64,000 nt of DNA from a virus. A program made the translations under genes and the position numbers. Where the stretch lies: positions 1-64,000 of the IMG/VR virus record IMGVR_UViG_3300017917_005384. One strand, 5' to 3'. Shown one piece after another: positions 136 through 51,104 of this stretch. Numbering within the stretch: position 1 is the first letter of the stretch; each line of letters opens with the position of its first letter. A model generated the notes under the pieces. The model was given only the letters and a program-made list of their open reading frames with translations, ran no database searches and had not been told where the DNA came from.

Positions 136-378
136 ATGAATCAACGTAATGAACAAGGACAAAAACACGGTTATTGGGAAAACTATTATATCAATGGTAA
201 ATTATCCTATAAAGGTCATTATAAGAATGGTAAACGGGATGGTTATTGGGAAGGGTATAATTACAATGGTCAATTATGGAGGAAAGGTCATTATAAGGAT
301 GATGAAAAAGATGGTTATTGGGAAGACTATTGGTCTGATGGTCAATTAAATTATAAAGGATTTTATGCAAAAATGTAA
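136..378 (+). CDS. MORN-repeat small protein
   Basis: An 80-residue protein made almost wholly of three 23-residue MORN-like units (GYWExYYxNGQLxxKGHYKDG). It starts MNQRNEQGQ and ends FYAKM. An in-frame ATG six bases upstream (130) gives MDMNQRN. I chose 136 because the paralogs at 3900 and 4155 start with MNQRN. It lies 12 bases after the preceding MORN gene with no promoter between, so the two are probably co-transcribed. Function unknown. Confidence 0.8.
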   Translation: MNQRNEQGQKHGYWENYYINGKLSYKGHYKNGKRDGYWEGYNYNGQLWRKGHYKDDEKDGYWEDYWSDGQLNYKGFYAKM

Positions 379-384
379 ATCTGA

Positions 385-576
385 ATGGATATGAAACCAC
401 ATCAAAAAGCAAAAGATATTGTTGATAAATTTTATATTTTTAACCATCTTGGAAATAAACATGCTATTAAATGTGCATCAATTGCTGTTGAAGAAATTAT
501 GAATGCATTAGAAGAAAATGGCTCATGGAATTATGATTATTGGAATGAAGTAAAACAAGAAATTGAAAAACTATAA
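385..576 (+). CDS. Small conserved phage-type protein
   Basis: A 63-residue protein, alternative start at 391. It reads KAKDIVDKFY, then KHAIKCASIAVEEIMNAL, then YWNEVKQEIEKL. Short proteins with this pattern (a helix ending in CAxIAVEEI followed by YWxEVKxEIEKL) recur in Bacteroidota phages, from memory and without a search. It is predicted all-helical and has no known function. It begins seven bases after the MORN gene, sharing its transcript. Confidence 0.7.
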   Translation: MDMKPHQKAKDIVDKFYIFNHLGNKHAIKCASIAVEEIMNALEENGSWNYDYWNEVKQEIEKL

Positions 577-594
577 AGTAATACCTTTTAAAGA

Positions 595-619
595 GGCAAA
601 ATAATATTGTTATATTTAA
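595..619 (+). promoter_or_regulatory. Early-type promoter for the AT-hook gene
   Basis: GGCAAAA at 595 and TATATTTAA at 611, 16 nt start to start. The ATG at 638 follows 18 nt after the second box, leaving a short A-rich leader without a Shine-Dalgarno sequence. Confidence 0.65.
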
Positions 620-637
620 CGAAATAAAATAAACAAT

Positions 638-1330
638 ATGCCTAAAATTATAGAAAAACCACTTATTGTTAGTGGAGAACAATGCGGTAATTTTTTAGCA
701 TATGGTGAAATAGAACCAGAACTTCTTGTAACACCAGAAACACCATACTTTACTCGTGTATTACCAGCTCCATTTTTTTATGAAAAACGATTGTTTTTCT
801 TTTTAATTAAACGATACGAACCCGGAGAAAAATCCACTTTCCCTAATGGTGGGTTTGAAGTAAGAGATGAAGGTGGAGCATTTAGGTCATATGATTTAGA
901 TCAAGTAATTATTCATCCTCAAGTAATTAAACATAAAAAAACACTTGAAAAAATGGCTCGTCGAGCCGAAAAAGAACAAGTTAAACGTGAACGACAGCGT
1001 AAAAAAGTTGAACAACAATTTCAAAAATCAGAACAACCTAAAACAACAATAAGTACAGGAAAACGAGGCCGTCCACCACTTGATCCTGTAATTAAAGCAG
1101 CACGTGAAGCAGAAAAAGTATCTAAAGCCATTGTCTCTAAAGGGCACCGTGGGCGACCAAAAGGTACAGGTACACCTAAACCACCTAAACCAACAGTTGA
1201 TCCTAATCAACCTAAACGTAGAAGAGGTCGCCCTGCCTTGTCTCCAGAAGCAAGAGAAATGAAAGCCCAAGCTAAAATTGCAGTTTATTCTCGATCAAAG
1301 GGGTTAAGGGGAAGGCCTAAACGTAAGTAA
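638..1330 (+). CDS. Multi AT-hook protein
   Basis: A 230-residue protein. The N-terminal ~115 residues form an unrecognised acidic/aromatic domain. A basic coiled segment follows (residues ~108-130, rich in K, R, E). The tail carries four GRP-centred motifs: KRGRPPL, HRGRPKGTG, RRRGRPALS and LRGRPKRK. GRP cores flanked by basic residues are the AT-hook signature, which binds the minor groove of AT-rich DNA. In this AT-rich genome it could compact or silence DNA or act as a nucleoid-like transcription factor (inference). It has its own early-type promoter. Related hooks occur in the genes at 8426 and 53191. Confidence 0.75.
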   Translation: MPKIIEKPLIVSGEQCGNFLAYGEIEPELLVTPETPYFTRVLPAPFFYEKRLFFFLIKRYEPGEKSTFPNGGFEVRDEGGAFRSYDLDQVIIHPQVIKHKKTLEKMARRAEKEQVKRERQRKKVEQQFQKSEQPKTTISTGKRGRPPLDPVIKAAREAEKVSKAIVSKGHRGRPKGTGTPKPPKPTVDPNQPKRRRGRPALSPEAREMKAQAKIAVYSRSKGLRGRPKRK

Positions 1331-1332
1331 AA

Positions 1333-1357
1333 GGCAAAACTTTTTACGTAAATTTAT
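1333..1357 (+). promoter_or_regulatory. Early-type promoter for small membrane protein
   Basis: GGCAAAA at 1333 and TAAATTTAT at 1349, with the same 16-nt spacing as the others. It starts three bases after the AT-hook stop codon, so the stop region and promoter nearly overlap. The target ATG is at 1373. Confidence 0.6.
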
Positions 1358-1372
1358 TTTAAATAAATAACT

Positions 1373-1543
1373 ATGAAAACAAATACAATTATTAAAGGAA
1401 CCTATGCATTCTATATGGGATTCGCATTATCTCTATTTTTTGATGCTGGTTTAACTGACTGGCGCTGGTGGGCAATTGCGATACCAAGTATGCTTGTTAT
1501 GGAGTTATTAACTTCAAAGAATGAAGAAAATGAATCAATATAA
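1373..1543 (+). CDS. Small two-helix membrane protein
   Basis: A 56-residue protein starting MKTNTIIKG. Two hydrophobic stretches (about residues 11-24 and 33-46) are separated by LTDWRWW and could form a membrane hairpin. The tail is acidic. The last 14 bases overlap the start of the next MORN gene at 1530, so the pair is probably translationally coupled. A role in the host inner membrane, for example exclusion, is possible but only inferred. Confidence 0.65.
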   Translation: MKTNTIIKGTYAFYMGFALSLFFDAGLTDWRWWAIAIPSMLVMELLTSKNEENESI

Positions 1544-1844
1544 TGAAAAAGGAAACAGGGAAGGTTATTGGGAAGGATATTATTCCGATGATCAATTAAG
1601 TTGGAAGGGCCATTATAAGGATGGAGTAAAAGAGGGTTATTGGCAAAACTATTATACCAATGGTCAATTATCATGTAAAGGTCATTATAAGGATGGCGAA
1701 TATGAAGGTTATTGGGAAATGTATTATATCAATGGTCAATTAATGTATAAAGGTCATTATAAGAATGGTAAACCAGATGGTTATTGGGAAGGGTATTATG
1801 AGAATGGTCAATTATGTTATAAATCATTTTATGCCAGAATGTAA
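1530..1844 (+). CDS. MORN-repeat protein, four-unit version
   Basis: A 104-residue protein starting MNQYNEKGN. It contains four 23-residue MORN-like units, one more than most of its neighbours, and ends FYARM. An in-frame ATG at 1521 (MKKMNQY) is less likely because the paralogs begin at MNQ. The differing unit count shows in-frame gain or loss of a 69-bp module. Confidence 0.8.
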   Translation: MNQYNEKGNREGYWEGYYSDDQLSWKGHYKDGVKEGYWQNYYTNGQLSCKGHYKDGEYEGYWEMYYINGQLMYKGHYKNGKPDGYWEGYYENGQLCYKSFYARM

Positions 1845-1847
1845 AAA

Positions 1848-1872
1848 GGCAAAATTCTTATCTTATATTTAT
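1848..1872 (+). promoter_or_regulatory. Early-type promoter, duplicated copy A
   Basis: GGCAAAA at 1848 and TATATTTAT at 1864. The 25-bp core, with the spacer TTCTTATCT, is identical at 2139, 2742 and 4329, so promoter and flanks were duplicated as a block. It drives the repeat-protein gene at 1888. Confidence 0.65.
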
Positions 1873-1887
1873 ATAAAATAAAAAAAT

Positions 1888-2139
1888 ATGACAATCGCAC
1901 AACAACTCAAGATTAAAGAATTTCCTTTCGAGATTAATGATTCGCAAGGAAAATGTATCTATTACGAAAATTCCAGTGGGAATTGGTTTAAGCAGGAATA
2001 CGACGCGCAGGGCAACCAAATCTACTATGAAAATTCAGGGGGCACGATCATCGACAATCGCGCCAAAACCGAGTTCACAATGGACGAGATCGCAGCCAAG
2101 TTTGGCATTCCAGTTTCACAACTTAAAATCAAAAAATAG
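1888..2139 (+). CDS. EYDAQGN-repeat protein, short member
   Basis: An 83-residue protein with conserved ends and a repeat centre. The N-terminus is MTIAQQLKIKEFPFEI. The centre holds one full repeat unit (YYENSSGNWFKQEYDAQGN) and a partial one. The C-terminus reads TMDEIAAKFGIPVSQLKIKK, which looks like a small helical binding motif. Three larger paralogs lie at 4372, 6301 and 7745. The tandem units resemble YD/RHS-type repeats, but no toxin domain is attached. Function unknown. Confidence 0.75.
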   Translation: MTIAQQLKIKEFPFEINDSQGKCIYYENSSGNWFKQEYDAQGNQIYYENSGGTIIDNRAKTEFTMDEIAAKFGIPVSQLKIKK

Positions 2140-2163
2140 GCAAAATTCTTATCTTATATTTAT
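2139..2163 (+). promoter_or_regulatory. Early-type promoter, duplicated copy B
   Basis: GGCAAAA starts on the last base of the preceding TAG stop codon, and TATATTTAT starts at 2155. The core is identical to the copy at 1848. The target start at 2199 has a longer A-rich leader than usual. Confidence 0.65.
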
Positions 2164-2198
2164 ATAAATAAATAGTTAAACATTAAAAACAAAACAAA

Positions 2199-2426
2199 AT
2201 GACAAAGACAATTGTACTTGAACCTTCAACTAACACACACGCACTGACTGGTGTAACTGAAGTAGCTAACATTACTAGCTCAATTCTTAAAGTGAAAACA
2301 TCAGGCCCTTCTAAAGTGTTTCATGGTGAACATCACACTATTGGAATTGAAAGTGAAAATATAATCAAATATGTCCAGCAGGAACTAAACCCAGTAACAG
2401 GTAAGCTTCAGAATGCTTGGGACTAA
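2199..2426 (+). CDS. Hypothetical protein
   Basis: A 75-residue protein starting MTKTIVLEPSTNTHALTG. It has a central HGEHHTIGIES segment and ends LNPVTGKLQNAWD. No domain is recognised. It is monocistronic, with its own promoter upstream and a strong hairpin terminator 18 bases downstream. Confidence 0.65.
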   Translation: MTKTIVLEPSTNTHALTGVTEVANITSSILKVKTSGPSKVFHGEHHTIGIESENIIKYVQQELNPVTGKLQNAWD

Positions 2427-2443
2427 TTTAGATGAAAAAAAAG

Positions 2444-2475
2444 TGGGTGCTTAAAGGAGCACCCATTATTTTTTT
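2444..2475 (+). terminator. Rho-independent terminator
   Basis: An 8-bp perfect stem, TGGGTGCT (2444) with AGCACCCA (2458), a 6-nt loop and a following T-rich run. It ends the transcript of the gene at 2199. Confidence 0.85.
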
Positions 2476-2495
2476 AATTTATAGTGTTATAATGT

Positions 2496-2738
2496 ATGAA
2501 TCAATATAATGAAAAAGGGAATAGGGAAGGTTATTGGGAAGGGTATTGGTACAACGGTCAATTACGGGGGAAAGGTCATTATAAGGATGGTAAACATGAA
2601 GGTTATTGGGAATACTATTATTCCAATGGTCAATTAATACGGAAAGGTCATTATAAGGATGGAGCACCAGATGGTTATTGGGAAGAGTATCATTTAAATG
2701 GTCAATTATGGTATAAAGAATTTTATGCAAGAATGTAA
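2496..2738 (+). CDS. MORN-repeat small protein
   Basis: An 80-residue protein, MNQYNEKGN to FYARM, with three MORN-like units. It starts only 20 bases after the upstream terminator and no 16-nt-spaced promoter is visible, so it may depend on read-through or a weak internal promoter. Closest by eye to the genes at 1530 and 3646. Confidence 0.8.
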   Translation: MNQYNEKGNREGYWEGYWYNGQLRGKGHYKDGKHEGYWEYYYSNGQLIRKGHYKDGAPDGYWEEYHLNGQLWYKEFYARM

Positions 2739-2741
2739 AAA

Positions 2742-2766
2742 GGCAAAATTCTTATCTTATATTTAT
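2742..2766 (+). promoter_or_regulatory. Early-type promoter, duplicated copy C
   Basis: GGCAAAA at 2742 and TATATTTAT at 2758. It sits immediately after the stop codon of a MORN gene, the same arrangement as at 1848 and 4329. It drives the gene at 2797. Confidence 0.65.
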
Positions 2767-2796
2767 ATAAAATAAAAACAGTAAAATTAAAACAAA

Positions 2797-3546
2797 ATGA
2801 AAATTTACATCACAACATTTAATGAAGTTTATTTTGACACTGAACAAAATTCTATGGTTGGTTGTTCCAATTCTGAATTTCTTCGTTACCTAAAAGGTAT
2901 TCACACAAATCGTGAACGATTTATTAATCGTTATGTAAATGTGTTGCTTGAAAAACTTGAAAGTTTGAAAGAACATAGTATGGAAGATTATGATTGTATT
3001 AAAAAGTTTATTGACTTTTTGGTTGATAACTACAACGATGCTGTTTCTTTTTCATTTAAAGAATCTTTTGAACTAAATGAAAAACGAGAATTTCAAGCAC
3101 TAGTGTTTTCATCAATCAATATCGGTGAAATGATGCAAGAATTGGGTGCTACTCGTTATAAAACAGATGGTATCGAAGTTAAACACCGTCGATATGATGA
3201 TGATGGAAATGTTACTAATGAAGAAATGTACCACAATGTTTATGAAGTGTGGGAAGTGAATGGTGAAAAATTGGGAATTAATGAAAATCTTTACACAGTT
3301 AAATGCTGGTGTACTTCGACCAATAAAGAACATTGGTTGTGGATTGAAGATCAATACAAAGAAGATCCACTTGAAGCTATTGCATCTACTTTCCGAGTGC
3401 ATGAAAATATCATTCCTCATATCAAATGTTTGAAGCGACATGGTGATATTCTTTTAGCTGAAATGAATGAAGATGTCACACCAGAAGGTAATATTGTTCC
3501 ATTTACTAAGGAACTATATTTCAAACTATTAGTTGCTCAAAGTTGA
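2797..3546 (+). CDS. Hypothetical protein, 249 aa
   Basis: The largest early protein without a recognised domain. The N-terminus is MKIYITTFNEVYFDTEQNS. A helical, charged middle (residues ~20-90) is followed by a KTDGIEVKHRRYDDDGNV stretch and a possible beta segment, YTVKCWCTSTNKEHWLWIE. It lacks signal peptide and membrane segments and is probably cytoplasmic. Its own promoter precedes it and a GC-rich terminator follows, so it is expressed as a single unit. Confidence 0.75.
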   Translation: MKIYITTFNEVYFDTEQNSMVGCSNSEFLRYLKGIHTNRERFINRYVNVLLEKLESLKEHSMEDYDCIKKFIDFLVDNYNDAVSFSFKESFELNEKREFQALVFSSINIGEMMQELGATRYKTDGIEVKHRRYDDDGNVTNEEMYHNVYEVWEVNGEKLGINENLYTVKCWCTSTNKEHWLWIEDQYKEDPLEAIASTFRVHENIIPHIKCLKRHGDILLAEMNEDVTPEGNIVPFTKELYFKLLVAQS

Positions 3547-3564
3547 TGTTGTGATAATAAATGT

Positions 3565-3602
3565 AAAAAGCCCCTGATCGTTTAGAAAAGGGGCTTTTTT
3601 TA
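3565..3602 (+). terminator. Rho-independent terminator
   Basis: AAAAAGCCCCT pairs with AGGGGCTTTTT around a 13-nt loop. The A-run/T-run flanks suggest function in both directions. It ends the gene at 2797. Confidence 0.85.
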
Positions 3603-3605
3603 TTT

Positions 3606-3630
3606 GTCAAAACAACTATAATATATTTAT
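3606..3630 (+). promoter_or_regulatory. Early-type promoter for a MORN operon
   Basis: GTCAAAA at 3606, preceded by TTT so that TTTG is complete, and TATATTTAT at 3622. It drives three consecutive MORN genes starting at 3646, 3900 and 4155. Confidence 0.65.
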
Positions 3631-3645
3631 TAAAATTAATAAAAA

Positions 3646-3888
3646 ATGAATCAATATAACAAAAAAGGAAATCAAGAAGGTTATTGGGAACAATATTGGT
3701 TTAATGGTCGATTACGATGTAAAGGTCATTATAAGGATGGCAAAGCTGATGGTTACTGGGAAGACTATTATTCCAATGGTCAATTAATATGGAAAGGTCA
3801 TTATAACGATGGGGCACCAGATGGATATTGGGAAGTGTATTATGAGAATGGTCAATTAGAATTGAAAGAATTTTACGCAAAAATGTAA
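3646..3888 (+). CDS. MORN-repeat small protein
   Basis: An 80-residue protein, MNQYNKKGN to FYAKM, with three repeat units. It is the first gene of a three-gene MORN operon. It differs from its paralogs mostly at the variable positions flanking NGQL, the pattern expected of diversifying surface residues on a fixed scaffold. Confidence 0.8.
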   Translation: MNQYNKKGNQEGYWEQYWFNGRLRCKGHYKDGKADGYWEDYYSNGQLIWKGHYNDGAPDGYWEVYYENGQLELKEFYAKM

Positions 3889-3899
3889 ATTAGATTTAT

Positions 3900-4142
3900 A
3901 TGAATCAACGTAATGAGAAAGAAAATAGAGAAGGCTATTGGGAAGAGTATTACAACAATGGTCAATTAGATTATAAAGGGCATTATAAGGATGGTGTGCT
4001 AGATGGTTATTGGGAAAGATATTATTACAATGGTCAATTATGGCGGAAAGGTCATTATAAGGATGGCAAACGGGAAGGTTATTGGGAATTCTTTTATGAC
4101 AATGGTCAATTATACTATAAAGAATTTTTAGCAAGAATGTAA
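3900..4142 (+). CDS. MORN-repeat small protein
   Basis: An 80-residue protein, MNQRNEKEN to FLARM, with three units. It lies 11 bases after the previous MORN gene and 12 before the next. The MNQR start groups it with the genes at 136 and 4155 rather than with the MNQY group (1530, 2496, 3646), so at least two sub-lineages are interleaved. Confidence 0.8.
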   Translation: MNQRNEKENREGYWEEYYNNGQLDYKGHYKDGVLDGYWERYYYNGQLWRKGHYKDGKREGYWEFFYDNGQLYYKEFLARM

Positions 4143-4154
4143 ACCTGAATGTAT

Positions 4155-4325
4155 ATGAATCAACGTAATGAACAGGGACAAAAACATGGCTATTGGGAAG
4201 GGTATTATTCCGATGGCCAATTAAATTGGAAAGATCATTTTAAAGATGACAAAAAAGAGGGTTATTGGGAATCATATTTTTTCGATGGTCAATTACAGTA
4301 TAAAGAATTTTATGCAAGGATATAA
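4155..4325 (+). CDS. MORN-repeat protein, two-unit version
   Basis: A 56-residue protein, MNQRNEQGQ to FYARI, with only two repeat units. The repeats are decaying (KDHFKDDKK in place of KGHYKDGK). It may be an in-frame deletion product of a three-unit gene. Confidence 0.75.
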   Translation: MNQRNEQGQKHGYWEGYYSDGQLNWKDHFKDDKKEGYWESYFFDGQLQYKEFYARI

Positions 4326-9204: not shown

Positions 9205-9301
9205 AGTCAGGTGGCGCAATGGTAGCGGACGGAAATGGGAGTAACCGAAAGGTCAGTACCAATCACTTGCCGGAGTACAGGTTCGAATCCTGTCCTGACT
9301 A
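9205..9301 (+). ncRNA. tRNA-like RNA, 97 nt
   Basis: A perfect acceptor stem, AGTCAGG (9205) with CCTGACT (9294), and a perfect T-arm, ACAGG-TTCGAAT-CCTGT. A tRNA-like D-arm is present (TGGCGCAATGGTAGCGG). The anticodon region is too long (about 45 nt) and has small internal pairings. It may be a tRNA with an insertion in the anticodon arm. The sequence CTTGCC near its end resembles a glycine-type anticodon loop, but no clean stem forms. 3' CCA is not encoded. Confidence 0.6.
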
Positions 9302-10604: not shown

Positions 10605-10628
10605 GCAAAATTTTTTTATTATATTTAA
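10604..10628 (+). promoter_or_regulatory. Early-type promoter
   Basis: GGCAAAA starts on the last base of the stop (10604) and TATATTTAA at 10620. Drives the gene at 10655. Confidence 0.65.
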
Positions 10629-10654
10629 TTATTAAATAAATAAAATTAAAAGTT

Positions 10655-10906
10655 ATGACAGTAAAAGAATTAATGGACACATTAAGTACATTTGATCCTG
10701 AAACAGAAGTAGTAGGTATGTGTATTGATCCTACAGATTACATCTATAAACTTCCTATTGAATCAATTGAATTAGGTGATCCATTTGATAGTAATGGTAT
10801 ACATGGTGTTACAGGTGATGAAATAGATGATTGGGATGATGTACATGATAAAGATGGTGAATATGTTGGTGAAAAAGTATTGATTATAAATTTAGGTAAT
10901 GTTTAA
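10655..10906 (+). CDS. Small acidic MTVKEL-type protein
   Basis: An 83-residue protein starting MTVKELMDTLSTFDPETEV. Short phage proteins with a TVKELIxxLxxFDPDxEV start are common and uncharacterised. The rest is strongly acidic (DEIDDWDDVHD). A role by charge mimicry is conceivable but unsupported. Confidence 0.65.
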   Translation: MTVKELMDTLSTFDPETEVVGMCIDPTDYIYKLPIESIELGDPFDSNGIHGVTGDEIDDWDDVHDKDGEYVGEKVLIINLGNV

Positions 10907-10917
10907 TTAAGATAAAG

Positions 10918-10948
10918 AATACCCTAGAAATAGGGTATTTTTTTTTTA
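10918..10948 (+). terminator. Rho-independent terminator
   Basis: AATACCCTA-GAAA-TAGGGTATT, a perfect 9-bp stem with a GNRA-type tetraloop, then a T-run. Confidence 0.9.
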
Positions 10949-10964
10949 TTAATGAATAATATTT

Positions 10965-10989
10965 GTCAAAATTTTTTTATTATATTTAA
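10965..10989 (+). promoter_or_regulatory. Early-type promoter
   Basis: TTTGTCAAAA (G at 10965) and TATATTTAA at 10981. The preceding TTATTAATGAATAATA is repeated upstream of the promoters at 11310 and 11655, so the upstream flank was duplicated too. Confidence 0.65.
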
Positions 10990-11015
10990 TTATTAAATAA
11001 ATAAAATTAAAAATT

Positions 11016-11249
11016 ATGGAAAAGAAATTAGTATTAGAAATTTTAGAAAGGAATGGATATGATAAAGAATATTTTGAGGAAATGGATGATAATGTAATTG
11101 AAGGAGGTACTGAAGAATGGATGGATGTGTTAAGTGATATAATTGGAAAAAATGCATATGATCAAGATAATTGGACTGAAGAGGATTATATGAAAGTTAG
11201 AAAATTTATTAATGTTATGGAAAATGATTTAGGATTAGAATTATTGTAA
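11016..11249 (+). CDS. Acidic protein with domain shared with 47968
   Basis: A 77-residue protein starting MEKKLVLEILERNGYDKE. Residues ~32-66 (EEWMDVLSDIIGKNAYDQDN and on) are nearly identical to the C-terminal half of the gene at 47968. At DNA level, 75 bases are the same (11112-11186 against 48145-48219). Here the domain has no RMQQLAGINE leader and is driven by an early promoter. Function unknown. Confidence 0.7.
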   Translation: MEKKLVLEILERNGYDKEYFEEMDDNVIEGGTEEWMDVLSDIIGKNAYDQDNWTEEDYMKVRKFINVMENDLGLELL

Positions 11250-11264
11250 ATTTTTAAATAAAAG

Positions 11265-11292
11265 ATACCTCAGAAATGAGGTATTTTTTTTT
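11265..11292 (+). terminator. Rho-independent terminator
   Basis: ATACCTCA-GAAA-TGAGGTAT followed by eight T. Same loop and flanks as the terminator at 10918 with a compensated stem, so the two look like evolved copies. Confidence 0.9.
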
Positions 11293-11309
11293 ATTAATGA
11301 ATAATATTT

Positions 11310-11334
11310 GTCAAAATTTTTTTATTATATTTAA
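11310..11334 (+). promoter_or_regulatory. Early-type promoter
   Basis: TTTGTCAAAA (G at 11310) and TATATTTAA at 11326. Drives the gene at 11353. Confidence 0.65.
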
Positions 11335-11352
11335 TTAATAAGATTAAAAAAT

Positions 11353-11616: not shown

Positions 11617-11654
11617 ATAAAATATATAAGGGTTATTATTAATGAATAATATTT

Positions 11655-11679
11655 GTCAAAATTTTTTTATTATATTTAT
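11655..11679 (+). promoter_or_regulatory. Early-type promoter
   Basis: TTTGTCAAAA (G at 11655) and TATATTTAT at 11671. Drives the lipoprotein-like gene at 11707. Confidence 0.65.
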
Positions 11680-11706
11680 ATAAATAAAAAATAAAAAATT
11701 AAAAGT

Positions 11707-11859: not shown

Positions 11860-11878
11860 AAAAAAATGAATAATATTT

Positions 11879-11903
11879 GTCAAAATTTTTTTATTATATT
11901 TAA
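11879..11903 (+). promoter_or_regulatory. Early-type promoter
   Basis: TTTGTCAAAA (G at 11879) and TATATTTAA at 11895. Last of the dense promoter series. Drives the gene at 11922. Confidence 0.65.
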
Positions 11904-11921
11904 TTAATAAAATTAAAAAAT

Positions 11922-38063: not shown

Positions 38064-38693
38064 ATGAAATACTACAACTTTTTCAAATTTCTAGAAGATA
38101 AAGGAGAAAAGAAAATCCCTATCAAAGTAAAATTAATACAAAATCCAAACTACCAAATCACACAAGCTGACGCGACACCCGATTTGAATTTATACGATAC
38201 TCCAATCACATCTCTTGGAAATTTAACTTCAGTTGGTGGCAGTTTGAATTTATACGATACTCCAATCACATCTCTTGGAAATTTAACTTCAGTTGATGGG
38301 AATTTGAATTTACAATATAGTAATGTCAAATCTCTTGGAAATTTAACTTCAGTTGGTGGAGATTTGAATTTATATGGTACTCAAATCGAATCTCTTGGAA
38401 ATTTAACTTCGGTTGGTGGGAATTTGTATTTGATAGGAACTAATGTTGAATCTCTAGGAAATTTAACTTCGGTTGGTGGGAATTTGAATTTGGAAAATAC
38501 TAATATAGAATCTCTTGGAAATTTAACTTCGGTTGGCGGGGATTTGTATTTAAATAATAGTCCAATAAAATCTTTTGGAAATTTAACTTCGGTCGGTGGA
38601 TATTTGAGTTTATACAATACTCCCCTATCAAAAAAATACACTGAAGAGCAAATTCGATCAATGGTTGATGTTAAAGGTGAAATATATTTATAA
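38064..38693 (+). CDS. Leucine-rich-repeat protein with 60-bp tandem repeats
   Basis: A 209-residue protein from ATG (an upstream TTG start is less likely). Residues ~45-190 are eight 20-residue units of the form LNLYGTxIESLGNLTSVGGD, an LRR/right-handed solenoid pattern. At DNA level the units are 60-bp repeats with long identical cores (TCTTGGAAATTTAACTTC). The N-terminus MKYYNFFKFLED has an FLE/D site resembling the leaders. The repeats probably expand and contract. Function unknown; a binding scaffold is likely. Confidence 0.75.
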   Translation: MKYYNFFKFLEDKGEKKIPIKVKLIQNPNYQITQADATPDLNLYDTPITSLGNLTSVGGSLNLYDTPITSLGNLTSVDGNLNLQYSNVKSLGNLTSVGGDLNLYGTQIESLGNLTSVGGNLYLIGTNVESLGNLTSVGGNLNLENTNIESLGNLTSVGGDLYLNNSPIKSFGNLTSVGGYLSLYNTPLSKKYTEEQIRSMVDVKGEIYL

Positions 38694-43424: not shown

Positions 43425-43811
43425 ATGGAATTTATTACTGAAGTAAAACGTTTACAAAAACTAGCAGGAATATTAACTGAACAAGAAAAACAACCAGAAG
43501 AAGAAATTTCTTCTGCTGATACTCCTGAAACTCCATCTGGTTCTATTACTAAGGCTGAAGCAAAACAGCTTATAAAAGGAACAAAAGGTAAATTCTTTAC
43601 TGTTACTTTCATTAAAAAAGACGGCACTACTCGTGTTATGAATGCCCGTTTAGGTGTAAAAGCATACCTTAAAGGAGGAGAACTTCCTTATGATCCTGAA
43701 GCAAAAGGATTAATACCTGTATTTGATATTCCTAAACGTGAATACAGAATGGTGAATTTAAATACTATTATTAAGTTAAAGATTGGTAATAACGAATACG
43801 ATGTAAAATGA
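43425..43811 (+). CDS. WYL_2/Sm-like SH3 barrel protein with LAGI leader
   Basis: A 128-residue protein from MEFITEVKRLQKLAGILTEQ, a leader of the RxQxLAGI class with an LTE/Q site. After an acidic linker, residues ~40-128 have GKFFTVTFIKKDGTTRVMNA and RLGVKAYLKGGE, the pattern of the Sm-like SH3 barrel (WYL_2, formerly DUF2693) found in many phages. It may bind nucleic acid. The ATG at 43425 was chosen because it begins the leader. Confidence 0.65.
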   Translation: MEFITEVKRLQKLAGILTEQEKQPEEEISSADTPETPSGSITKAEAKQLIKGTKGKFFTVTFIKKDGTTRVMNARLGVKAYLKGGELPYDPEAKGLIPVFDIPKREYRMVNLNTIIKLKIGNNEYDVK

Positions 43812-43862
43812 TTAAACTAATCCACATAAATACGATGTAAAATGATTAAACTAACCCACATA
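43795..43862 (+). repeat. 34-bp tandem duplication over a gene start
   Basis: AATACGATGTAAAATGATTA-type unit at 43795-43828 and again at 43829-43862, 33 of 34 bases identical (T/C difference). Each copy contains the end of the upstream gene, an ATG, and the MIKL leader start. The first copy now encodes a 10-residue remnant, MIKLIHINTM, and the second starts the real gene at 43842. Confidence 0.85.
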
Positions 43863-47967: not shown

Positions 47968-48279
47968 ATGAAAAAACATATTAACGAAATTTATAGAATG
48001 CAGCAATTAGCTGGTATTAATGAAATACGAGTAGCAACTCCTGGAAAGAGTCACTATTTGAATTTTTCTCAAAATGATGTAATTAATATTTTAACTAATA
48101 ACGAAATAGATATAGATGATGAAGAAGGAATAGATACAGATTCAGAAGAATGGATGGATGTGTTAAGTGATATAATTGGAAAAAATGCATATGATCAAGA
48201 TAATTGGACTGAAGAGGATCATATGAAAGTTGGAAAATTTATAAAGGTTGTGGAAGAAATGGGCATTGAATTTATATAA
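47968..48279 (+). CDS. LAGINE leader fused to early-gene domain
   Basis: A 103-residue protein. Leader MKKHINEIYRMQQLAGINEI, a linker, then EEWMDVLSDIIGKNAYDQDN, which matches residues ~33-52 of the early protein at 11016. 75 bases are identical between 48145-48219 and 11112-11186. This shows a recent transfer of the cargo domain onto a leader. Function unknown. Confidence 0.7.
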   Translation: MKKHINEIYRMQQLAGINEIRVATPGKSHYLNFSQNDVINILTNNEIDIDDEEGIDTDSEEWMDVLSDIIGKNAYDQDNWTEEDHMKVGKFIKVVEEMGIEFI

Positions 48280-48765: not shown

Positions 48766-49290
48766 ATGGAACAAAAGAAAATTGTAATTATTGGAGCAGG
48801 AGTAGCAGGTATCAACGCTGCTACTAAACTAGTTGATAACGGTTATCCGGGTGAATTAATCACAATTATAGATAAAGGTAATGACCCACATAACCGCTTA
48901 CCTGAAGAAGTAATGACAGGTATGTTAGGTGCCGGTGGTTGGAGTGATGGTAAATTAACTTATCACACTGCTATTGGTGGTCAGTTATCTAAATATTGTG
49001 GTGAAGAAAAAGCAATGGAATTAATGGATCAAGTTATTTCTAATTTTAGACGTTTTCATCCTAAACCAGAAGAAATATTCTGTTCTGATCCTCAGGAAGA
49101 ACCTGAATTTATTAAACCATATTTTGGTTTGAGAATGTTCCCTGTATGGCATATTGGAAGTAATTATCTTCATCTCATTGCTTGTAAATGGTACGAATAT
49201 TTATTATCGAAGGGAGTGAATTTCATGTGGAATACTGAAGTCACAGATATAAACTTTGATACTAATGAAATCGAATTTAAAACAAACTAG
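48766..49290 (+). pseudogene. FAD-dependent dehydrogenase, N-terminal fragment
   Basis: Encodes 174 residues. IVIIGAGVAGINAATKLVDN (residues ~6-25) is a Rossmann FAD-binding motif, and GAGGWSDGKLTYHTAIGG (~56-73) is typical of the COG2509-type FAD-dependent dehydrogenases. The frame ends at EFKTN and continues logically in the fragment at 50325 (KIKYDSLIFAVGKSG). A 1-kb insertion with a homing endonuclease and an acetyltransferase gene separates the halves. The enzyme would be inactive unless the halves assemble in trans. Confidence 0.75.
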
Positions 49291-49921
49291 AATCTATATT
49301 TACTTCTTAGAAAAGAATAATAATGTCTTTTATGTTGGTAAAACAAAAAATCCTAAACGTAGAGAATATGATTGGAAAAGAGAATTTGGAGAAGACATTA
49401 ATTTTAATTTAGTAGATGAAATAGAAGATAATAAAATAATATGGAAATTTTGGGAAAATTATTGGATTCAACAATTTAAACAGTGGGGTTTTAATTTAAT
49501 TAACCAAAACGAAGGTGGTGGTGGTTTAGATAAACATTCTGATGAAACTATTGAAAAAATTAGATCTAAAAAAATAGGTGTAAAACAAAATAGAACTAAA
49601 ATTAGAAAAGATAAAGGATTAAAACATAATAAACAACAAGGTATTAAGATTGGTCGTCCTGAAGGATTTAGATACAGTGAAGAACTTAAATTACATTTAA
49701 GTAATAAAATGAAAGGACGTTCAAAACATACTGAAGAAGGAAAATATAAATTTGTAGATAATAAGGTTTATTCTTTTATTAATATAGATACTAATGAAGA
49801 ATTTAATGGTATTAGATATGATTTTCAAAAGAAATATAATTTAAAATATAAAGGAATATATAATTTAATAACAAGTAAAGCAAAAACATATAAAAGATGG
49901 AAAATAAAAGAATTAAATTAA
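49256..49921 (+). CDS. GIY-YIG homing endonuclease
   Basis: A 221-residue protein. IYIYFLEKNNNVFYVGKTKN followed by PKRRE is a GIY-YIG core. The C-terminal half has basic NUMOD-type DNA-binding segments (GRPEGFRYSEELKLHLSNKM, YSFINIDTNEEFNGI). It begins inside the 3' end of the first dehydrogenase fragment. An internal later start is possible, because the first residues (MILMKSNLKQ) are encoded by the host gene's sequence in another frame. Confidence 0.8.
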   Translation: MILMKSNLKQTRIYIYFLEKNNNVFYVGKTKNPKRREYDWKREFGEDINFNLVDEIEDNKIIWKFWENYWIQQFKQWGFNLINQNEGGGGLDKHSDETIEKIRSKKIGVKQNRTKIRKDKGLKHNKQQGIKIGRPEGFRYSEELKLHLSNKMKGRSKHTEEGKYKFVDNKVYSFINIDTNEEFNGIRYDFQKKYNLKYKGIYNLITSKAKTYKRWKIKELN

Positions 49922-50313
49922 TAGATTTATTAGAAGAAACAATAAATTGGGATAGAGCATCTGAATTTTATGATACTGGCAATTATGTGACTATAAATAA
50001 AGGTTATGGTATTATAGAGTTTGGTCTAGAAACACTATCAGATGGAGAAGAAGCATTATTCATTAATGATATTTCTATTAAACCGGAATTTCAAGGAAAA
50101 GGATATGGTTCTAAAATTATTCAAAGTGCTATAGAATATGCTAAAGAGCAAGGAATACCAGTAGCATTAAGAGCATCCGTAGGAGGGCATTATAATACAA
50201 ATAGTAATATGTCACAAGAAGATTTGATTAAATTTTATAAAAAATTTGGATTTGAAAATAGACCAGATCTATCAAATTTTGGGCACGATGATATTTTTAT
50301 GGTTAAATTTTAA
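49897..50313 (+). CDS. GNAT acetyltransferase with MIKL-type leader
   Basis: A 138-residue protein. The N-terminus MENKRIKLIDLLEETINW contains IKLIDLLEE, the MIKLxDIL-type leader with an LLE site. GNAT motif A, ISIKPEFQGKGYGSKIIQSA (QGKGYG acetyl-CoA loop), is followed by FYKKFGFENR. Its start overlaps the endonuclease gene by 25 bases. It would acetylate a protein or small molecule, possibly after injection into the host (inference). Confidence 0.75.
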   Translation: MENKRIKLIDLLEETINWDRASEFYDTGNYVTINKGYGIIEFGLETLSDGEEALFINDISIKPEFQGKGYGSKIIQSAIEYAKEQGIPVALRASVGGHYNTNSNMSQEDLIKFYKKFGFENRPDLSNFGHDDIFMVKF

Positions 50314-50324
50314 AAATAAATAAT

Positions 50325-51104
50325 ATGAAAAAAATAAAATACGACTCTCTTATATTTGCTGTAGGCAAATCAGGTATTGATTTTGCACAACAACTATCAA
50401 ATGATTATAAACTACCAACTGAACCTAAATCAGTTCAAATAGGTGTTCGTTTTGAAGCACCACAAAAATACTTCCAGAAATTGATTGATGTATCTTATGA
50501 CTTTAAACTCTATCAAAAATTTGATAATGTATCTCTACGTTCATTCTGTACTAACAATAATGCAGCTTATGTGGCTGTTGAAGAGACTTATGGGGATATA
50601 AGTTATAACGGTCATGCTAAGAAAGGTGAAGAATTTCGTAATGATATGACTAATTTTGGTATCTTGATGGAAATTAAAGGTATTGAGAATCCATTTGAGT
50701 GGTCACGTAATGTAGTTAAAAAACTACAGGTTGATGATTATGGAGGAATATATTATAGCCCTGATAAAGATCGTATGCCTTCTCTTACATCTGAAGGAGC
50801 ACCTATCAAAACATTTAAAGTAGATAATTTAGGATTATTTAAATACGCAATGGGAGAATATGCCCAATATATAATTGATTTTATCGAACAAATGAATAAA
50901 ATATTTCATTTTGGTAATGAATATGGTTTTTATGCTCCTGAAGTAAAATATCTTAGCCCTGAGCCTCTAGTAGATTATTCGAATCTTGCATTGGTTAATT
51001 TTCCTAATATTCACTTTGTAGGTGATGCTTTAAGTGCTCGTGGTATTACAGTAAGTGGAGCGCAAGGGATATATGTAGCTGAAAGTATATTAAAAAAAGT
51101 ATAA
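50325..51104 (+). pseudogene. FAD-dependent dehydrogenase, C-terminal fragment
   Basis: Encodes 259 residues with its own ATG. KYDSLIFAVGKSGIDFAQQL and the end FVGDALSARGITVSGAQGIY (the terminal GD...G...A FAD-contact motif) are the second half of the same dehydrogenase family. Clean start and stop codons mean a stable fragment may still be made. Not obviously decayed, which suggests a recent insertion or trans-complementation. Confidence 0.75.

Follow-up and report, generated by a model that had tools for sequence, protein, structure and literature searches.

A phage dehydrogenase gene as a probable dock for homing endonucleases and their passenger genes

How does a single enzyme come to be encoded in two pieces, and what becomes of the genes that lie between them? 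The question is raised by a locus in a T4-like phage, represented by a viral contig of 155 kb (IMG/VR record IMGVR_UViG_3300017917_005384); the opening 64,000 nucleotides of that contig, at their full length, are referred to below as the window. Four genes are arranged head to tail on the forward strand (positions 48,766 to 51,104, Table 1): the first part of an FAD-dependent dehydrogenase gene, a GIY-YIG homing endonuclease gene, a GNAT acetyltransferase gene and the second part of the dehydrogenase gene. All four open reading frames are confirmed at the positions given in the original prediction. Only a handful of cases are known in which a homing endonuclease has split a gene. Here the explanation that we regard as probable is one of recurrent insertion: homing endonucleases, accompanied by exchangeable and mostly leader-bearing passengers, have left behind a two-piece enzyme and a dock that can be used again.

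Results

Organization of the locus

The start of the endonuclease gene overlaps the end of part 1 by 26 nt, and the start of the GNAT gene overlaps the end of the endonuclease gene by 25 nt. Direct repeats flanking the insert reach 7 nt at most and are uninformative.

Table 1. Features of the split dehydrogenase locus (window coordinates).
Feature	Position	Strand	Remarks
Dehydrogenase part 1, N-terminal	48766..49290	+	174 aa; GxGxxG Rossmann motif; TAG end at the split
GIY-YIG homing endonuclease, family GIY-A	49265..49921	+	218 aa; ATG at 49265 lies inside part 1
GNAT acetyltransferase, passenger	49897..50313	+	138 aa; start codon within the 3′ end of the endonuclease gene
GNAT leader MENKRIKLIDLLEE	49897..49938	+	MENKR in place of the M of MIKL-type leaders
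TGGAAAATAAA, endonuclease end and cargo junction	49898..49908	+	same base at ten loci with differing passengers
Part 2 initiation region, A+T-rich, ..aaataaataatATG	50309..50324	+	resembles that of part 1
Dehydrogenase part 2, C-terminal	50325..51104	+	259 aa; begins KKIKYDSLIFAVGKSG; own ATG

Intact and split alleles of the dehydrogenase gene

Part 1 gives FAD/NAD-binding Rossmann matches (PF07992, 1.4e-7), and a single PHROG family of dehydrogenases, phrog_12409, spans both parts: its positions 2–163 match part 1 and its positions 185–418 match part 2. Distant relatives of part 2 occur in Campylobacter phages and in faecal phage contigs, those of part 1 in fewer records; in phage F355 a gap of 66 nt separates the matches to the two parts, both of which fall under a feature called dehydrogenase. 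As to the substrate of the enzyme, only general flavoprotein matches were obtained, and the best solved relative, VP0956, is itself uncharacterised.

Scans of viral contigs with each part returned hundreds of relatives, from which the best 80 per scan were kept. Among the best-match loci fetched, 130 distinct intact sequences have one open frame running through both parts, so the one-gene relation of the parts is not a matter of chance. The original prediction had taken the two fragments for one split dehydrogenase, had proposed a search for relatives with an intact gene and had accepted that separate encoding in all relatives would count against it; the 130 intact relatives bear it out. A split at the same site is present on 22 distinct contigs, the window included (like the intact count, this describes a best-hit sample, here after an added scan with the second GIY-YIG family, GIY-B, and not a population frequency). 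Nine of the 22 carry an endonuclease of family GIY-A, seven carry GIY-B and six carry none; nine further contigs, which end inside the locus, are kept apart from these.

In intact proteins the split site corresponds to a loop that is hypervariable in both length and sequence, between ‘..EVxxIDF’ and ‘YDxLIFAVGKSGID’. A structural model of the intact protein from L159 (mean pLDDT 79.5) shows the site as a hairpin between strands 167–170 and 175–177, directly preceding the strand that bears the conserved YDxLIFAVG motif. Because the loop is hypervariable and its flanks are co-converted, the insertion point cannot be defined to the base. As to the host, there are weak hints of Flavobacteria: two of five genome-bin contigs with the dehydrogenase gene are labelled Flavobacteriaceae or Flavobacteriales.

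The endonuclease and traces of homing

Taken alone, the window endonuclease scores 19.5 bits against PF01541, below the Pfam cut-off; together with its frame neighbours it scores 27.1 bits, above the family cut-off. Its top fold matches are to the catalytic domain of I-TevI (a weak E of 0.054, probability 0.98), obtained with a model that is of low quality except in the catalytic domain and at the C-terminal end, with low confidence in the middle. Two residues that may be the catalytic arginine and glutamate, R33 and E64, do not vary among ten relatives, and dN/dS across the GIY-A family ranges from 0.14 to 0.50. The endonuclease is predicted to cleave DNA at the dehydrogenase site. Occupied and empty alleles with co-converted flanks are both found, which is the pattern of a free-standing homing endonuclease.

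Co-conversion is seen in a pair of near-identical phages, one with a split gene that lacks an endonuclease (L178) and one with an intact gene (L043). The two are 94–100% identical over most of both parts and also over stretches of the flanks. Next to the insert, identity falls to 82% over the final 100 nt of part 1; in part 2 it is 60% in the first 100-nt window and 77% in the second. A dip of this shape is typical of co-conversion flanking an insert. A second pair, L085 and L155, matches fully across the 757 nt upstream and almost fully further downstream. Where L155 has the 3′ end of part 1 and a first passenger, L085 has a GIY-A endonuclease and an ADP-ribosyltransferase-like passenger; the two phages have the second passenger and the beginning of part 2 in common. 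L085 thus looks like an invasion of a gene that was already split. With the endonucleases of L083 and L085 having seemingly entered at an already split site, the endonuclease that first split the gene in the lineage of the window may be another than the present one.

On gene trees, split alleles are distributed almost randomly. A protein tree from which sequence near the insert was removed, and which has 18 split rows, requires 15 changes of state, where shuffling gives a mean of 17.2 and a minimum of 14. Trees that include insert-adjacent sequence give 6 changes for part 1 and 14 for part 2, as against 15 and 16 without it; the low figure for part 1 is due to shared sequence near the insert.

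GIY-YIG genes are also found near or beside intact dehydrogenase genes, upstream in L003, L004, L025, L047, L055, L068 and L170 and downstream in L147; the neighbourhood therefore attracts endonucleases outside the split site too. L183, L195, L273, L276 and L279 share a conserved ORF of 46–47 codons (MGRIKKYQTEDERILKQREYSKKYYWSNKEK..) that runs into the start of GIY-B in a different frame; it may be a domain of the endonuclease to which a frameshift gives access.

Passengers joined at a fixed junction

The endonuclease is closed by the same 11 bases, TGGAAAATAAA, in 10 of 10 GIY-A loci, and from that base on the sequences are unrelated. At nine of these loci the passenger starts at an out-of-frame ATG within the endonuclease end, its first residues reading MENK; at the tenth (L083) the passenger ATG lies just past the shared bases. 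The passengers themselves are of several kinds. A GNAT protein is found in the window (PF00583, 2.9e-11) and in L084; L012, L022 and L085 share a protein of 156–159 aa with a sub-threshold match to the 2CompART ADP-ribosyltransferases (E 6e-4); the passenger of L164 is Tox-ART-HYD1 ADP-ribosyltransferase-like (E 1.3e-6, above the curated cut-off); and three are proteins without a name. GIY-B loci have their passengers in front of the endonuclease, not behind it.

L084 carries a GNAT copy that is 97% identical, together with a similar endonuclease at the same site, in phage surroundings that do not align with those of the window. This copy, along with the other passengers joined at the identical base, supports the earlier suggestion that the endonuclease had brought a cargo gene. 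A free-standing homologue in L175, adjoining a putative ribonucleotide reductase gene, is 78% identical over residues 6–138 and starts MIKLIDILKEN, where the window copy reads MENK-RIKL (MENKRIKLIDLLEE). The GNAT gene was therefore joined at its own start, its start codon being replaced by one internal to the endonuclease, just as had been read from the RIKL that stands in place of MIKL.

Passengers also differ in age from the sequences around them. Between the window and L084, dS is 0.09 for the GNAT gene and about 0.97 for the dehydrogenase parts; between L012 and L022 it is 0.05 for the passengers and 0.46 for the endonucleases. Passenger movement is therefore more recent than that of the rest of the locus, and partly independent of it.

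Leaders and packaging

Among the genes of the viral record are those for a T4-type prohead protease (S77, E 1.8e-31) and a T4-type major capsid protein (Gp23, E 2.2e-79). Two genes located between the protease and a scaffold-like gene have leaders (..AKRMQFLAGIITE and ..AKRLQQLAGIITE) of the type present in several genes of the window; in the GNAT leader the motif [LI]xE, a possible cleavage site, occurs twice, ending at residue 13 and at residue 14. Of 91 window ORFs, 13 fit one of three leader patterns that had been set by eye; none of 247 internal-Met controls does. A leader was judged present in 12 of 17 distinct passenger families, as compared with those 13 of 91 window ORFs (Fisher p 6e-6); with families sorted by hand and patterns made after the data had been seen, this enrichment is suggestive only. 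The packaging-type leader that had been claimed for the GNAT gene is thus supported in part, by a T4-type prohead protease and by leaders of the same type in the head-gene cluster, cleavage and packaging themselves being predictions. The T4 virion packages and injects its internal proteins as well as the ADP-ribosyltransferase Alt, and leaders of this kind target the internal proteins (PMC9026906). By analogy, the passengers are probably delivered by the virion and act on the bacterial host.

Within the leader-bearing gene at 47,968–48,279, a stretch of 111 nt (48,145–48,255) is 95.5% identical to 11,112–11,222, part of a leaderless small gene at about 11,017–11,249, as though a cytoplasmic protein had lately acquired a leader. 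At 43,795–43,862, a tandem duplication of 34 bp (97%) spans the start codon of a MIKL-leader gene (43,842).

Loss of the endonuclease

In three endonuclease-less inserts the sequence just before part 2 is a fossil of the 3′ end of GIY-B (36 of 39 nt in L028, 39 of 39 in L178 and 37 of 39 in L209), and at most 1 in 52,200 random segments matches as well. The fossil stretch of L028 contains a stop codon in the old reading frame, and L246 has a GIY-A gene with a broken frame. Together, the fossils and the broken gene mean that the split and its passengers outlive the endonuclease. A fossil test in fixed register gave no match in L155, L177 and L085, where a matching stretch lies one base shifted (by eye, unscored).

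The passengers might have been gathered by an ordinary recombination hot spot between leader-bearing genes, with the endonuclease arriving later as a bystander: leader genes flank the locus, six split contigs are without an endonuclease, and L085 and L083 resemble later invasions. Such a hot spot would not be expected to place GIY-A passengers at the endonuclease end in 10 of 10 cases, with the start codon inside it in nine, nor to leave a near-identical GIY-B fossil in three inserts from which the endonuclease is gone, nor to centre the tract of replaced sequence on the insert. We consider it unlikely, and favour repeated insertion by homing endonucleases.

State of the two parts

Both parts are open on all 22 split contigs, including those that have no endonuclease (two part 1s end at the contig end). 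For part 1, median dN/dS is 0.15 among split and 0.13 among intact alleles; for part 2 the medians are 0.20 and 0.17. Because alleles move sideways, part of the divergence behind the split values predates the split. Both parts are under purifying selection with no clear relaxation, although dN/dS does not of itself prove function. The earlier view that neither fragment is decayed agrees with the open frames and with these ratios. Nearly all part 2s have their own ATG; in L082 there is none close to the start of part 2, and the frame runs upstream into the passenger.

It could nonetheless be argued that the insertion destroyed the enzyme, and that the parts have merely not yet decayed. Insertions of this kind are expected to be harmful initially, and one contig-edge relative with a split gene, L185, has an in-frame stop in the middle of part 2, the only case seen. 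That frames stay open on 22 of 22 distinct split contigs, also after endonuclease loss, that nearly every part 2 has its own start codon, and that split pairs have dN/dS values near those of intact pairs make a dead copy distinctly improbable. In our view, the two separately translated parts most likely assemble into one enzyme.

Group I introns often house GIY-YIG endonucleases (I-TevI), and a self-splicing intron, or an intein, would allow the dehydrogenase to be made as one chain. We find this very improbable. No Rfam match was obtained in the region at E values up to 5, nor at the gathering threshold in 17 split loci, and so no ribozyme core RNA of a group I intron was found; of the 1,034 nt that separate the dehydrogenase parts, all but 11 are coding (99%), and part 2 has its own ATG. 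An intein is ruled out since the reading frames of the two parts differ (offset 2) and 51 stops interrupt the frame of part 1 before part 2, leaving no single polypeptide. Splicing, which the original prediction had named as an outcome that would overturn it, thus finds no counterpart among the intron families of Rfam. Finally, although the data are wholly metagenomic, the recurrence of the identical junction across contigs of many separate metagenomes makes an assembly chimera of unrelated phage contigs a negligible prospect.

Other features of the window

A repeated block with TTTGTCAAAATTTTTTTATTATATTTAATTA precedes a run of small AT-rich genes, with copies at 10,606–10,655, 10,941–11,016, 11,286–11,352, 11,633–11,701 and 11,865–11,921 and weaker copies at 5.9–10.4 kb; it is likely a promoter family of the phage. 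Rfam places a tRNA at 9,205–9,301 (42.2 bits) that ARAGORN does not report. Tandem repeat arrays with units of 72 bp and 60 bp occupy 161–4,295 and 38,182–38,622.

Discussion

We propose that the hairpin loop of the dehydrogenase gene was the homing target of a GIY-YIG gene whose 3′ end carried a fused passenger. The insertion would have left two dehydrogenase parts, translated separately and likely assembling as one enzyme, and the split site would from then on be a reusable dock, invaded by two endonuclease families. Passengers would be swapped at the fixed junction: directly behind the endonuclease in family A, in front of it in family B. The endonuclease may later be lost, while passenger and split stay. 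Most passengers, with leaders as in the head-gene cluster, would be packed in the virion and delivered to the host in the manner of T4 internal proteins.

The broader reading is that one phage gene serves permanently as a dock for homing endonucleases that carry cargo: the enzyme tolerates a two-piece form, the site offers a slot in which virion-delivered, host-modifying proteins are acquired, swapped and kept, and the endonuclease gives mobility along with the passenger's start codon. We put the chances of this at about even. If true, it would explain how phages trade in injected host-takeover proteins. The alleles (empty; endonuclease plus cargo; broken endonuclease; cargo only) can be compared in nature, making the life cycle of the element visible, and they provide a natural series of two-piece flavoenzymes for the study of how proteins survive being cut.

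Phage genes interrupted by homing endonucleases include nrdA in Aeromonas phage Aeh1 (MobE), gene 39/60 in T4 (MobA) and gene 43 in Aeromonas phage 25 (a seg-type endonuclease); in Aeh1 and phage 25 the split parts have been shown to work together (reviewed in PMC2988022). As with Aeh1 nrdA and MobE, a free-standing homing endonuclease gene here interrupts a phage gene to give two polypeptides. The dehydrogenase also resembles other genes in pieces in being uninterrupted in relatives, with open pieces under purifying selection (a measure that includes divergence before the split). Unlike the Aeh1 type, passengers are brought along, the split site is common to many phages and has received two or more endonuclease families, and the split often persists where the endonuclease has gone; assembly of the parts is, in the present case, a prediction.

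HEG-islands, in which homing endonucleases mobilise adjacent cargo between phages (Barth, Dunham and Seed 2023, PMC10448857), are bracketed by at least two endonucleases and involve core genes. Here a single endonuclease accompanies accessory genes, within a split gene and with a fixed fusion junction: a search for GIY-YIG genes found one at the locus, the next clear one lying near 127.6 kb. The SegB-tRNA loci of T-even phages, where a homing endonuclease is linked to genes related to host defence (PMC13096335), likewise pair a phage homing endonuclease with linked genes; they differ in showing amplification at a tRNA locus, with neither a split gene nor an exchange of cargo at a junction. With the internal proteins and Alt of T4 (PMC9026906) the passengers share short N-terminal leaders, a gp21-type protease and a variable set of accessory proteins that includes an ADP-ribosyltransferase, whereas packaging and cleavage are predicted here, from leaders likened to those of T4 by type rather than by sequence comparison.

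Outside phages, a multi-ORF insert that includes a putative nuclease splits cox2 of Campsomeris wasps into two translated halves (PMC5374615). That fission is mitochondrial and concerns two species of one genus, and passenger exchange is not documented in the available portion of the account. Searches of the open-access literature turned up neither an endonuclease that splits a gene and has exchangeable passengers at a fixed junction nor a site whose split persists once the endonuclease has gone, which is not proof of absence. Gene-splitting endonucleases are already known from the systems compared above; the cargo dock is the new part.
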